A stretch of DNA of 64,000 nucleotides from an uncultured Bacteroidales bacterium. Lineage in GTDB: Bacteria; Bacteroidota; Bacteroidia; Bacteroidales; Muribaculaceae. Shown one piece after another: positions 6,761 to 13,553 of this stretch. The position numbers and the translations under genes were made by a program. The notes beneath the pieces were generated by a model, which worked only from the letters and a program-made list of their open reading frames with translations, was not told where the DNA came from and ran no database searches. Location: assembly GCA_947573135.1 (NCBI GenBank), contig CANPDU010000008.1, positions 1-64,000 of the forward strand, in the 5' to 3' direction. Each line of letters opens with the position of its first letter. The stretch's first letter is position 1.

Positions 6761-6840
6761 AAAAATTTGTATCGGGATGCAAGATTCCGCCATTACGCCG
6801 ATTTATATTATAGAATATCAAATCAAAAAAACTCAAAAAA

Positions 6841-7572
6841 ATGAAAAAACTGAAATTCATCATTCCCTCTCTCGTCTTTATTGCTTCGGCGACGCTATTC
6901 CAGTCATGCGAAAAAGATGACGAAAATTTTCTGCAGGTCAGCTATCCTACAGCTATCGTCACAGTATGTCCTGACGCAGCAGGCGGTTTCACAATGCAGC
7001 TCGATAACGAGACAACCCTCTACCCGTCAAATGTTAAACGATCACCCTACGGCTCGAAAGAAGTGCGTGCTCTGGTAAATTATACTGTTGATGACTCCCG
7101 TCCCGACGGAAACGGAGTCTATGTCAACTGGCTCGACAGCATCCGCACTAAGCTCCCTGTCGTCAGCATACCCGGCGACAACAGCCAGACATTCGGTAAT
7201 GATCCGCTCGAGATCATCGACGATTGGGTGACTGTCGCCGAAGACGGTTATCTGACTCTGCGTTTCCGCACACTTTGGGGTAACACTAACGTCCCTCACC
7301 ATATCAACCTTGTGACCGGCATCAATCCTGACGATCCTTTTGAATTCGAGCTCCGTCACGATGCCAAAGGCGACACCTACGGCCGTTACAGCGATGCTCT
7401 GATCGCTTTCAACCTCAACGGTCTTCCGCGCAAAGACGACAAACCCGTGAAAGTTATTCTCCACTGGAATTCATTCTCCGGTGAGAAGTCAGCCGAATTC
7501 GATCTTCAGCTCAGACCCGCAGTCAGCGAAAATTCAGTCAAAGGTCTGCAGTCAGCCGACATGATCGAATAA
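6841..7572 (+). CDS. NigD-like lipoprotein
   Basis: Lipobox ATLFQSC followed by EKDDEN; NigD-like N-terminal (YPTAIVTV...) and C-terminal regions. Confidence 0.8.
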   Translation: MKKLKFIIPSLVFIASATLFQSCEKDDENFLQVSYPTAIVTVCPDAAGGFTMQLDNETTLYPSNVKRSPYGSKEVRALVNYTVDDSRPDGNGVYVNWLDSIRTKLPVVSIPGDNSQTFGNDPLEIIDDWVTVAEDGYLTLRFRTLWGNTNVPHHINLVTGINPDDPFEFELRHDAKGDTYGRYSDALIAFNLNGLPRKDDKPVKVILHWNSFSGEKSAEFDLQLRPAVSENSVKGLQSADMIE

Positions 7573-7632
7573 CCGCCGCCTGTTCACTCTCTCCCGGCAT
7601 TAATCAGACGTGAATTATATAATATTTCAGTA

Positions 7633-8193
7633 TTGATCAACCCGGCGACCGAACTCGATCTCGTTCATCTCACCGACTCCGGCGAGCAGACGGCATTGGA
7701 GCTGATATACTCACGGTATATCGGCTACCTTACAGCCGTCTGCTCCCGCTATATAGTCGATGACGAGGATGTGAAAGACGTCCTTCAGGAGTCTTTCCTG
7801 AAAATATTCGCGTCGCTGAGCAGATTTCGTTATCGCGGAGAGGGCTCCTTAAAAGCCTGGATGACAAAAATCACTGTCAATGAGACTTTGAAATTCATCG
7901 GCCGGACGCAACGGATAGATTACACACGCATATCCGCCGAAACTGAAGAAATCAGCGACGAGGAGCCCGATGTCGGCCATATTCCGGCATCGATCATCCA
8001 TTCTTTCATACGTGAGCTTCCCGATGGTTATCGTCTGATTTTCAACCTCTATGTAATCGAAGGCAAGTCCCATAAGGAAATTGCCCGCCTTCTTGACATC
8101 AAGGAGAGCACATCTGCCTCACAACTCCACAGAGCAAAGGCGCTCCTTGCCGCAAAAATAAACAAATACCGGAACAAACTCAAATCGTTATGA
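7633..8193 (+). CDS. ECF-type RNA polymerase sigma factor
   Basis: Region 2 (DDEDVKDVLQESFLKIFASLSRFRYRGEGSLKAWMTKITVNETL) and region 4 (LPDGYRLIFNLYVIEGKSHKEIARLLDIKESTSASQLHRAKALL); apparent TTG start. Confidence 0.9.
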   Translation: MINPATELDLVHLTDSGEQTALELIYSRYIGYLTAVCSRYIVDDEDVKDVLQESFLKIFASLSRFRYRGEGSLKAWMTKITVNETLKFIGRTQRIDYTRISAETEEISDEEPDVGHIPASIIHSFIRELPDGYRLIFNLYVIEGKSHKEIARLLDIKESTSASQLHRAKALLAAKINKYRNKLKSL

Positions 8194-9416
8194 CAGACAA
8201 ATGGATTGAAGATATCAGGGAAAAAATGAGTACCTGCGAGGTCGACGAACCCGCGGGGCTCCACGATATGATATTTGCCCGGCAAGCATCGAGCACTCCC
8301 GTGCGCAGTCGTTTCCGCATAATGATTTTGTCCGGGGCTGTCGCCGCCTCTGTCATTATATTACTGTCATTGGCCTGCTTCTGGCGCATCATCGATCCCG
8401 GAGCAAACGACATTCCTGTCCTGATGGCTCAGAAAGAAATCTCGGTTAAGACAATTTCAGCCGAAGTTTCAGACCGCCCCTTGCATGTTGCTCAAGTCGA
8501 AAAGAGATTGAACTCATCTGCCCGTCCGAAGCCCGTTGCGTCGGTCGCAGCCCCTCAGCCTGAGCAGACCGACAATTCTGCTGCACACGACAATCTGTCT
8601 TCTAAGCAGCCTGAAAAAAACAGTAGCGGCACAGCCTCCTCACTCCGCAAGCAGACTCATGCAGATGAACCCGTGCAAAACGACGCGACAGATCTTATAA
8701 TCAGCCGAAAACGCAAATCAGGTCTTTCCGTCGGCGCATTCACCTCCGGTGCATTCGGATCTGCTGACCGGCAGTCTTCAGCCGTCAGCCCCTGTGCGTC
8801 AACCTACCGATGGCTTGAGTCCTCTGATTTCGGCGACGTACTGTCTCCGTTGGTCCGATCACGCGCTGCCAATGATATTGATATGCGCGAAATAGACATG
8901 CACCACAACCTCCCCCTTCGCTTCGGACTGTCAGTGCGATATGATTTCAATTCCCGTTTCGGCATCGAAAGCGGCCTTGTATATTCCAGACTAAGCTCCG
9001 ATCTGAGCGGCGGCGCTCGGCAGAATATCAAAGGTCAACAAGTACTCCACTACATGGGAGTACCGCTAAACATCAAATACCGCATCGCGTCATGGCGCTC
9101 ATTCAGTCTTTACGCATCAGCCGGAGTGATGATGGAAAAATGCGTTGACGGCTCGCTTACCAAAGAAGAACTGTCCAACACCTCGTCCGACATAAAAACT
9201 TCGTCAATCGGCATCAGCGAAGACGCCTTGCAATGGTCATCAAACATAGCGGCCGACCTACAGTTTGACATCACACGCCACATCGGCGTATATATCGAAC
9301 CCGGCATATCCTATTACTTTGACAACCGTTCCGAGGTCCGCAACATCTACAAAGACCGCCCCTTTAACTTCAACCTCAACCTCGGCCTCCGATACACCTT
9401 CGGCTCCACCCGCTGA
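8190..9416 (+). CDS. Dual membrane-spanning anti-sigma-like protein: cytoplasmic N-terminus, TM helix, disordered linker, C-terminal outer-membrane beta-barrel
   Basis: ATGA overlap with the sigma gene; MTDKWIEDIREKM... N-terminus, TM IMILSGAVAASVIILLSLACFW, Ser/Pro/Gln-rich linker, barrel from about GLSVGAFTSGAFG to FNFNLNLGLRYTFGSTR. Confidence 0.8.
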   Translation: MTDKWIEDIREKMSTCEVDEPAGLHDMIFARQASSTPVRSRFRIMILSGAVAASVIILLSLACFWRIIDPGANDIPVLMAQKEISVKTISAEVSDRPLHVAQVEKRLNSSARPKPVASVAAPQPEQTDNSAAHDNLSSKQPEKNSSGTASSLRKQTHADEPVQNDATDLIISRKRKSGLSVGAFTSGAFGSADRQSSAVSPCASTYRWLESSDFGDVLSPLVRSRAANDIDMREIDMHHNLPLRFGLSVRYDFNSRFGIESGLVYSRLSSDLSGGARQNIKGQQVLHYMGVPLNIKYRIASWRSFSLYASAGVMMEKCVDGSLTKEELSNTSSDIKTSSIGISEDALQWSSNIAADLQFDITRHIGVYIEPGISYYFDNRSEVRNIYKDRPFNFNLNLGLRYTFGSTR

Positions 9417-9555: not shown

Positions 9556-9741
9556 ATGGCAATGACAATCAACTCCTCACCTGTTTTAACAGGAGAATCG
9601 GCAAAAGCTTTCGTTGAGGAAGCAGAACGCAACGGCATATTGCCTACGCCTTGTCTTTCGCCTGAACGCGAAGCACAGATTGCTGAATTTTTAAAAAAAT
9701 CGCGCGAGTTCATTTTTCCGCCCAAGGATAATAAAAATTGA
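9556..9741 (+). CDS. Small antitoxin-like protein encoded directly upstream of a GNAT gene
   Basis: 61-aa MAMTINSSPVLTGESAKAFVEEAERNG... ; overlaps the next CDS; layout typical of small protein/GNAT pairs. Confidence 0.55.
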   Translation: MAMTINSSPVLTGESAKAFVEEAERNGILPTPCLSPEREAQIAEFLKKSREFIFPPKDNKN

Positions 9742-10341
9742 CCTCAAATAATTTTATTCTCGAACGCGATGCCGTGATGCGACCTTATACTGCAGATGTC
9801 GCATCTTATTGTGTGCCATTTTCATGCGATGACAACGATCTTGATGAGTTCTTTTCAAAAGATGCTTTTCTATATGAAACTGAATTACTTGGAAAGACTT
9901 ATGCCTGGATTAACACTGCCGATCTCGAAAATTTTAGGATTGGTTACTTTGGCAAATGACAGCGTCAAAGCGCAGTTCATTGCTAATTCTGCTCGCAACC
10001 GCTTACAACGGAGCATTACAAATGAAAAACGCGGAATAAATTACCCGGCTGTACTTATCGGACGTTTAGGCGTTTCTTCCGAATATAGAGGCAGAGGTCT
10101 TAATATTGGGAGCCAGATCCTCGATTTTATCAAAGGTTGGTTCCGATCTTCCGACAATAAAACAGGATGTCGTTTTATTGTCGTTGATGCTTATAATCAC
10201 GAAAAGGCTCTGCATTTCTATGAGAAAAACGGGTTCAAACCACTTTATAAAACCGAACAAGAGGAACGTTCTTTTCTGGGATTAAAACCGGAAGATCCTT
10301 TGGAAACGCGTTTTATGTTCTTCGACTTAAAACGCGAATAG
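9738..10341 (+). pseudogene. GNAT-family N-acetyltransferase (toxin-like), reading frame disrupted near 9940-9960
   Basis: N-terminal part in ORF 9738-9959 (CDDNDLDEFFSKDAFLYETELLGKTYAWI...RIGYF), remainder in ORF 9796-10341 (TLANDSVKAQFI...YPAVLIGRLGVSSEYRGRG...DAYNHEKALHFYEKNGF). Confidence 0.75.
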
Positions 10342-11471: not shown

Positions 11472-13553
11472 ATGAATGCAAAATTACTCTCAGCTATTCT
11501 GACCACACTCCTTATCATCGAAGGTGTTTTCGCACAAAACAGTGAAGCTACTGACAGCCTCACTCGCGAGCTGCAGGAACTTGTCATCACTGCCAAACAG
11601 CCGGCAACAAAATTGGTCGGCACTACCCTCGTATCTACTGTCGTCGGTACAAATCTTGCCGGCCTCGGTACTGCTCTCGATGTTCTTGCTCAGTTACCGA
11701 TGTTAAAGGTTGAGGATAACGCCGTCAATGTCATAGGTAAGAACAATATCGAAATCTATATCGACGGGCGCCCCATGCGCGACGAACAGGAACTACAGCA
11801 GCTGCTTTCCTCCAATATCAGGAAAGTCGAATTGCTCATGGCTCCGGGAGCTGCTTATGCAAGCACAACTGGAGCGGTACTTAAAATCACAACACGCCGG
11901 AATTTCGTAAAGGGACTTTCGTTCACTGATCGATTCCAACTTCAACGGCGCCGCAAATGGTCGGTTTTGGATTATCTCACCCTAAGCTATCGAGCAGGTA
12001 ACTGGGAGTTCTTTGCCAACGGTACGATAAATCACAATAACTCATTAGCAAAGGGATTAACTACCAATACACTTGTTTACGAAGGGAAAGAAACGGTAGT
12101 AGGGAGTAGCCAAAATAATACATATCCTACGACAACAGGCGTTGTCAAGGCAGGATTCAACTATGCCAATGGCCCACAATCGTTTGGAGCATACTACCGT
12201 TACAATCCTGAACACGGTGATTTCAAAAACACAGGTAGCGAATGGCTTAACTACAATCCGGCAATCAGCAGTAATATAGACAAACATACAAGAGCACACA
12301 GCCACCTCGCTTCTCTCTACTATGAAAACACTTTTGCTGAAAAATTTCTTCTTCACTTTGATGGCGATTTTCGTCGGTCAAATGAAAGCAATACTGTAGC
12401 AACTACTTATCCTTCTTCGTCTTTTCCTGCCGTAAACTCGACTGATGAACGGACATCAACCCTTTGGGCGGGAAAATTGTATCTGAATTTTTCTCTTTGG
12501 AATGGTGATTTTACAGTGGGGACTCAGGATAGCTATACGCATACTTCTCTTGATTACCGTATGCTTAATATCTCAGTCAGCGAGTATATTCCGTCTTCCA
12601 TGACTGATGCACGGCAGACCTCAGCAGCATTGTTCGCTTCATGGTCACGTATATTCGGCAAGTTCTCCCTTTTGGCAGGGGCAAGATATGAATATGTCGA
12701 TTATGACTTCAAGGTTGACGGCAAACGCTATGAAGAAGTAAGCCGCCGCGACTATCTGTTAACGCCTGACGTATCGGTTGGTTACTCTTTTAACGAAGAA
12801 TCGCAGATAAGCCTCAGTTATAAAATGGCGACGGTCAAGCCTCCATATTCACAACTCACCGGTTCACTGAATTATGTTGGCTTGCACCAAATCGAAGGAG
12901 GCAATCCGGCATTGCATGACGAGCGAATGCACGACATTCAACTTTTCGGCATTTGGAAAGGCTTCATGCTCCAAGCTGATTACACCCGCACACTTGACAC
13001 CTATGCTTACGTTAAACAACTATATCCCGCCGACAACCTCCAGCTAATCATGCACCCGGTCAATATTGACGTTTCGGCGCTGAGTCTTTATCTTGTATGG
13101 AGTAAGCCTGTGCGCCGATGGACTCCGAATATTACTGCCGGTATGTACAGACAGTGGCTACAGCTTGATGATCACAGCTACGACAAACCGATATTCTCTT
13201 ACTATTTCGACAACACTTTCTCCTTTCCACACGGGTGGACGATTACAGCCAATATAAACGGCAGCTCGCAGGGTGATATGCATACCAACCGTTTTGGCGC
13301 TTCTTGGTTTACAATGGATGCGTCGGCAGGCAAGACATTTCTAAACAAATCGCTCACCGTCAAACTGGCTGCAACCGACATATTCAATACGGCAAACAAC
13401 GACTGGACTATGAATACATACGGCGTTTTTGTTGACAAACGCCAGAGCTATGACCGACGAGGTGTCTCCCTGAATATCATTTACAACTTTCAGCCTCGCA
13501 AAAGCAAATATAAAGGCTCATCAGCCGCAGAAGATGAGCTGAAGCGACTTTAA
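11472..13553 (+). CDS. TonB-dependent receptor-like outer membrane beta-barrel protein
   Basis: Signal peptide, plug-like region (LDVLAQLPMLKVEDNAVNVIGKNNIEIYIDGRPM...VELLMAPGAAYASTTGAVLKITTRR) and a long barrel. Confidence 0.8.
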   Translation: MNAKLLSAILTTLLIIEGVFAQNSEATDSLTRELQELVITAKQPATKLVGTTLVSTVVGTNLAGLGTALDVLAQLPMLKVEDNAVNVIGKNNIEIYIDGRPMRDEQELQQLLSSNIRKVELLMAPGAAYASTTGAVLKITTRRNFVKGLSFTDRFQLQRRRKWSVLDYLTLSYRAGNWEFFANGTINHNNSLAKGLTTNTLVYEGKETVVGSSQNNTYPTTTGVVKAGFNYANGPQSFGAYYRYNPEHGDFKNTGSEWLNYNPAISSNIDKHTRAHSHLASLYYENTFAEKFLLHFDGDFRRSNESNTVATTYPSSSFPAVNSTDERTSTLWAGKLYLNFSLWNGDFTVGTQDSYTHTSLDYRMLNISVSEYIPSSMTDARQTSAALFASWSRIFGKFSLLAGARYEYVDYDFKVDGKRYEEVSRRDYLLTPDVSVGYSFNEESQISLSYKMATVKPPYSQLTGSLNYVGLHQIEGGNPALHDERMHDIQLFGIWKGFMLQADYTRTLDTYAYVKQLYPADNLQLIMHPVNIDVSALSLYLVWSKPVRRWTPNITAGMYRQWLQLDDHSYDKPIFSYYFDNTFSFPHGWTITANINGSSQGDMHTNRFGASWFTMDASAGKTFLNKSLTVKLAATDIFNTANNDWTMNTYGVFVDKRQSYDRRGVSLNIIYNFQPRKSKYKGSSAAEDELKRL

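Follow-up and report, generated by a model that had tools for sequence, protein, structure and literature searches.

The closest described relatives of the locus analysed here are Dma1 and Dma2 of Bacteroides thetaiotaomicron (PMC13088901) and the EcfO–Reo systems of B. fragilis and Phocaeicola vulgatus, which have an outer-membrane barrel (PMC9308784, PMC13114119). In these systems, loss of the barrel-bearing anti-sigma protein frees the sigma factor in B. thetaiotaomicron and P. vulgatus, and nigD genes are induced, with vesicles as the output in one species and a longer O-antigen and protection from a toxin in another (PMC13088901, PMC9308784, PMC13114119). Reo/EcfO has been described there as induced by the toxin BcpT, with mutants having a longer O-antigen (PMC9308784), and ecfO–reo and three nigD genes as high in the mouse gut, NigD being dependent on EcfO (PMC13114119).

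The window, a 64,000-nucleotide stretch of DNA from an uncultured Muribaculaceae bacterium, was found to contain a three-gene locus that is very probably a sigma/anti-sigma module of the Dma/Reo type, autoregulated and spanning the envelope. An earlier note, made from the sequence alone, had matched the locus to the Dma family as a member from a new lineage rather than a new class. This is supported by the features that can be assessed from sequence and models: a conserved short N-terminus, a transmembrane (TM) helix, a disordered tether, an eight-stranded barrel and adjacent ECF sigma and NigD1/NigD2 genes. The assignment of the locus as a Muribaculaceae member of the published Dma (Das1/Dma1)/EcfO–Reo module is supported; the note had mentioned neither the EcfO–Reo name for this type nor the fused form described below.

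Gene organisation and the barrel protein

The earlier note had read the locus as three consecutive genes for a NigD-like lipoprotein, an ECF sigma factor and a barrel protein, the last two joined by a 4-bp ATGA overlap. The ORFs agreed with this reading in both coordinates and strand, and the overlap was located at 8190–8193, where the barrel ORF begins inside the sigma stop. The features are as follows.

6841–7572, + strand: nigD, NigD1/NigD2-family lipoprotein of 243 aa (Pfam and NCBIfam profiles)
6907–6909, + strand: predicted lipidated Cys23 of the nigD product (lipobox in sequence)
7633–8193, + strand: ECF sigma factor of 186 aa with a TTG start (Pfam Sigma70_r2, Sigma70_r4_2; TIGR02937)
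approximately 7705–7914 and 7993–8148, + strand: sigma regions 2 and 4, respectively
8190–9416, + strand: dma, 408 aa, with an ATGA overlap with the sigma gene (Pfam, AlphaFold2, Foldseek, synteny)
8190–8309, + strand: N-terminal putative sigma-binding domain, aa 1–40, two short helices (AlphaFold2, conservation)
8310–8390, + strand: inner-membrane TM helix, aa 41–67 (AlphaFold2 helix; sequence)
8403–8723, + strand: disordered periplasmic tether, aa 72–178, about 107 aa (pLDDT, low conservation)
8724–9401, + strand: eight-stranded OmpA-like outer-membrane beta-barrel, aa 179–404 (Pfam, AlphaFold2, Foldseek)

The nigD product matched both NigD_N and NigD_C in Pfam and scored 208 bits over profile positions 1–211 of NCBIfam NF051862 'NigD1/NigD2 family lipoprotein', a subfamily built on B. 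thetaiotaomicron BT4005 and BT4719 with a curated cut-off of 60 bits. Its sequence has a lipobox, LFQSC, followed by EKDDE. The sigma product matched Sigma70_r2, Sigma70_r4_2 and TIGR02937 (sigma70-ECF), all above cut-off. Its TTG start is kept at the same position in the close homologues L065, L066 and L072, and perhaps keeps sigma expression low.

Some further genes were observed in the window and its genome. The sole other NigD relative found in the genome (C19:32944-33570, = L002) scored 45 bits, below the NF051862 cut-off, and sits downstream of an ABC-transporter ATPase gene; in L216 and L221, too, the nigD relatives follow an ATPase-like neighbour of this sort. Downstream of dma, a 61-aa ORF (9556–9741) precedes a GNAT acetyltransferase gene (9738–10341) that is apparently frameshifted, being two overlapping ORFs in different frames. 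The two are possibly a decayed toxin–antitoxin-like pair.

Relatives of the Dma protein were found in 127 of the 297 same-family genomes searched; since the other 170 gave no match, the module is not universal in the sampled genomes of the family. The gene order nigD–sigma–dma on one strand was observed in all of the 20 best full-context family homologues. The sigma gene adjoined the barrel, or was fused to it, in 60/60 family loci examined, which were picked by score or frame length rather than at random (20 best, 20 from the low-scoring tail and 20 with long frames). In the low-scoring tail it was directly upstream of the barrel or fused in 20/20. The linkage to ECF sigma genes that the earlier note had proposed looking for in homologues was present in all 60 loci. 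In other families of the order nigD still adjoins sigma/dma, often divergently, as in Bacteroides-type loci. In Bacteroides faecis MAJ27 the divergent NigD neighbour of the pair likewise belongs to NF051862. In the samples searched, the module was confined to the Bacteroidota. In a combined sigma and barrel tree the window locus grouped with other nigD-linked loci, close to the Bacteroides nigD-linked clade, the joint node having moderate support (SH-aLRT 80).

For the third protein, the earlier note had described a short N-terminus, one TM helix, a long disordered linker and a C-terminal barrel, and the AlphaFold2 model has this architecture, with the barrel also recognised by Pfam and Foldseek. 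Pfam OMP_b-brl was matched at aa 244–399. The AlphaFold2 model (15-row alignment, mean pLDDT 64, pTM 0.51, with most barrel blocks at pLDDT 75–96) has N-terminal helices at 4–13 and 24–34, the TM helix at 41–67, disorder at 72–175 (pLDDT <50) and, as the note had expected, a barrel of eight main strands between 179 and 404. Among PDB entries, Foldseek ranked the transmembrane domains of OmpA first, with E 1.3e-7 and a TM-score, normalised to the target length, of 0.65. The helix is flanked as RSRFR-TM-WRIIDP, with arginines preceding it on the predicted cytoplasmic side. Mean pairwise column identity among 20 family proteins was 0.43 for the N-terminal 40 aa, 0.48 for the barrel and 0.10 for the tether, and W5 and P21 were invariant among 15 sequences. 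No Pfam anti-sigma family was matched by the N-terminal domain, and a FecR domain was absent in the Pfam search. The conservation profile fits two functional ends on a spacer and not a signal peptide followed by an outer-membrane protein.

One alternative is that the third gene encodes a standard OmpA-like protein of the outer membrane, equipped with a long signal peptide and merely sharing a transcript with the sigma factor that controls it. Such a protein would share the barrel and tether, which alone would appear identical, and its N-terminal hydrophobic helix could be a cleaved signal. The 40 residues before the helix are nevertheless conserved in a way that a signal peptide is not, and in the fused paralogues described below the same helix follows the sigma domain, where cleavage would cut the sigma factor off. 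A plain OmpA-like protein is therefore very improbable and was rejected on its conserved N-terminus and the complete sigma linkage in the 60 family loci. Cell-surface signalling of the FecR/TonB-receptor type, as in polysaccharide and iron uptake loci, would be in keeping with the many ECF/FecR pairs used by Bacteroidota and with an outer-membrane receptor gene downstream (11472–13553; OMP_b-brl_3, TonB-dependent receptor barrel). That gene, however, lies more than 2 kb away behind two unrelated genes, and the lack of a FecR domain in the Dma protein and the OmpA-like, eight-stranded form of its barrel led us to reject this reading as extremely improbable.

A putative promoter motif upstream of nigD

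A putative promoter was identified ahead of the operon, with the motif TGCAAGATT-N-CGATTTATA upstream of nigD.

6778–6807, + strand: putative operon promoter, -35-like TGCAAGATT at 6778–6786 and -10-like CGATTTATA at 6799–6807

Ahead of nigD, the window and related loci share the consensus TGCAAG[A/G][A/T]TT followed, at fixed spacing, by [C/G]GATTTA. This motif was present in 14 of 32 nigD upstream regions (the window and 13 further loci), all of which fell among the 23 loci where nigD has the orientation of the operon. None of 1243 control upstream regions had it; as the motif was counted in the set in which it was found and the controls came from the same loci, this enrichment is descriptive. 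A strict pattern, TGCAAGRNTN{13,17}GATTTA, had one match in the 2.85 Mb genome, at 6778–6805 in the operon promoter itself.

Independent checks came from Bacteroides. Bacteroides-type divergent loci carry TGCAGTATTT and [G/C]ATTTA in both directions with the same architecture and spacing, and the distal nigD of B. faecis (L218) is preceded by TGCAGTAAATGCCCGGCTTTTTTATTTATA. The distance from the T of TGCA to ATTTATA was 23 bases in the window, the B. faecis sigma gene and the B. faecis distal nigD. The motif before this distal gene fits the published induction of distal nigD (nigD1, bt_4005) by the Dma1 branch (PMC13088901). Because related motifs with equal spacing precede homologous genes and the distal B. 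faecis nigD, the sigma factor of the window probably drives its own operon from the 6778–6807 motif; we infer that it recognises TGCAAG..GATTTA.

A looser pattern gave three further matches in the window's genome, all without the remainder of the motif. Another loose pattern gave nine matches against one for the reversed control, of which three were inside long ORFs and one other lay 25 bp before a 491-aa ORF; these matches are too weak to claim a wider regulon. The operon motif was absent upstream of the second NigD-like gene of the genome.

Fused sigma–barrel paralogues

One other clear barrel relative was found in the window's genome (G000), a single ORF joining sigma, TM, tether and barrel, with two copies of a promoter-like motif.

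contig C1:5844-7424 (= L241:5844-7424), - strand: fused sigma–TM–tether–barrel ORF (Pfam, AlphaFold2)
C1:7406-7433 and C1:5795-5822, - strand: TGCAGTCTTT promoter-like motif copies (pattern search)

Sigma70_r2, Sigma70_r4_2 and OMP_b-brl_2 were matched by Pfam in one chain. In the AlphaFold2 model the last sigma helix continues into the membrane helix (167–212), which indicates that the fused protein, as modelled, is without a separate anti-sigma domain. When 85,462 genomes were scanned with an alignment of 11 rows, 80 loci were recovered, of which 79 were fused and came from Muribaculaceae, Prevotellaceae and Bacteroidaceae. Overall, about 100 fused loci were found in Bacteroidales, encoding proteins of approximately 500–650 aa (L085-L107, L125-L204) and often alongside a split Dma pair. 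Isolates with the fused form include B. faecis MAJ27 (two copies), Xylanibacter muris and Prevotella sp. 885. Among 148 Bacteroidota genomes sampled from the whole phylum, there was no full-length match beyond the window's own genome.

Assembly error was rejected as a source of the fused frames, given about 100 independent loci that include the RefSeq isolates of these three species. The split and fused forms separate almost cleanly in both barrel and sigma trees, with two label changes, and recent repeated fusion was rejected on these grounds. One of the label changes is due to L111 (G354:C13), in which sigma and TM form a 228-aa ORF overlapped by 4 bp by a second ORF encoding the barrel; the barrel tree puts it within the fused forms, and this intermediate would be a fission or a frameshift. 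A broken fused gene was also observed in Bacteroides muris (L152:5025-5501), with a sigma part 74% identical to the copy in the window's genome, then a stop and unrelated sequence; its upstream TGCAGTCTTTT motif is retained.

The split-type operon motif was essentially absent upstream of fused genes (1/100). Of 101 fused loci, 86 had TGCAGTC in the 300 bp preceding the sigma domain; it almost always took the form TGCAGTCTTT at 40–75 bp with a -10-like element after it, compared with 118 of 1231 control regions containing this 7-mer. A second copy, TGCAGTC[T/A]TT, lay downstream of the fused-gene stop in 79/100 loci, mostly by 3–30 bp and facing the next gene. Its -10 region matched that of its own locus at 7.7 of 14 positions and those of other loci at 5.5 of 14 (62 pairs), a difference that is partly due to relatedness among the loci. 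The TGCAGTCTTT pattern had, in the genome of the window, exactly two matches in 2.85 Mb, one before the fused gene and one before the next gene, and a reversed-control pattern had none. The first of these runs across the TTG at which the fused gene is called to begin, so translation probably starts instead at the ATG of codon 14. That the TGCAGTC copies are a flanking repeat or a transposon is less likely, since additional genes also have copies in front of them and the -10 portion is retained.

Products of the genes downstream of fused loci include radical SAM/SPASM proteins, small lipoproteins, methyltransferases and, as in the window's genome, CotH-kinase lipoproteins. The CotH-kinase lipoprotein gene of the window's genome is at L241:4336-5823 (-). 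Recurrent neighbours elsewhere (for example in L202, L126, L170 and L156) are a radical SAM/SPASM protein with STTxCQSRCKHC and a SAM methyltransferase; an approximately 185-aa lipoprotein, for which no family was matched, also recurs. These neighbours are possibly a modification system under outer-membrane control. On balance we favour, with some reserve, a superfamily that takes in the window's module and also dual-membrane sigma factors without a separate anti-sigma protein, autoregulated through TGCAGTCTTT and with a small adjacent regulon of radical SAM/SPASM, small lipoprotein and CotH-kinase genes.

The fused genes are probably the most novel observation of the analysis, and they matter more than the window locus. 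The Dma/Reo kind of module is already known; for the fused form, with sigma factor and outer-membrane barrel in one chain, no description was found in the literature searched, of which coverage was incomplete. If correct, a sigma factor chained to the outer membrane would be the most direct link from outer membrane to transcription known to us, and the fused form would allow the barrel-to-sigma release mechanism of Dma signalling to be tested in one protein.

Proposed mechanism and comparison with described systems

In the proposed mechanism the Dma protein would be anchored twice, the barrel sitting in the outer membrane and a single helix in the inner one, with the disordered tether between, and its cytoplasmic N-terminus would hold the ECF sigma factor. 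A change in the state of the outer membrane may be the trigger: displacement or misassembly of the barrel, a pull on it, or a cut in the tether. The freed sigma factor would then act at the TGCAAG..GATTTA promoter, so that the levels of NigD, sigma factor and anti-sigma protein rise jointly. The main output would be NigD, a probable surface lipoprotein with a possible role in vesicle release or in protecting the surface. For this species, then, we infer sigma binding, signal direction, trigger, promoter recognition, output and vesicle control. The presence of sigma, TM, tether and barrel in a single polypeptide in the fused paralogues is indirect, Rosetta-stone evidence for functional pairing of the sigma factor and the Dma protein.

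The same paralogues are also compatible with a membrane protein that acts as a positive partner of the sigma factor, in activity or delivery, and not as an inhibitor, as in them sigma and membrane part are covalently linked with no inhibitory domain of their own between, and tethering need not equal simple sequestration. However, in B. thetaiotaomicron and P. vulgatus the sigma factor becomes active when the membrane protein is lost (PMC13088901, PMC9308784, PMC13114119), and a positive partner is therefore very improbable. The window locus extends the Dma/Reo kind to the Muribaculaceae, a dominant mouse-gut family, with the nigD output inside the operon, and the conserved promoter motif makes sigma-controlled genes searchable in many genomes.

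Das1/Dma1, Dma2 and Dma3 of B. thetaiotaomicron resemble the window protein in having an N-terminal sigma-binding region (putative here), a TM helix, a tether and a barrel. They further share an ECF sigma gene directly upstream, and the output of the Dma1 branch is NigD-like proteins, where the window has nigD in the operon; these systems come from a different family. Membership of the Dma family also implies a cognate sigma factor of group ECF21. In the window nigD heads a same-strand operon, but the B. faecis locus has it in divergent orientation, and the -35 element is TGCAAG in the window but TGCAGTATTT in Bacteroides-type loci. The EcfO–Reo systems of B. fragilis and P. vulgatus likewise pair a sigma factor with an anti-sigma protein bearing an outer-membrane barrel. 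The P. vulgatus locus numbers (03760 reo, 03761 ecfO, 03762 nigD) imply a three-gene adjacency like that of the window, although several nigD genes are in the P. vulgatus regulon and the window's genome has a single strict promoter match. As the outputs reported for P. vulgatus are NigD lipoproteins and a longer O-antigen, the vesicle phenotype of Dma1 need not transfer by analogy to the window species.

For the fused paralogues, precedent is provided by IutY (ECF243) and by ECF48/52/53, in which sigma factors are fused to TM regions; in IutY the sigma factor is joined to an inner-membrane segment and freed by proteolysis (PMC8999054). The fused form may either transcribe while tethered or be released by proteolysis as in IutY (PMC8999054). 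IutY and ECF48/52/53 as described have no outer-membrane barrel, whereas the fused paralogues found here are predicted to span both membranes.
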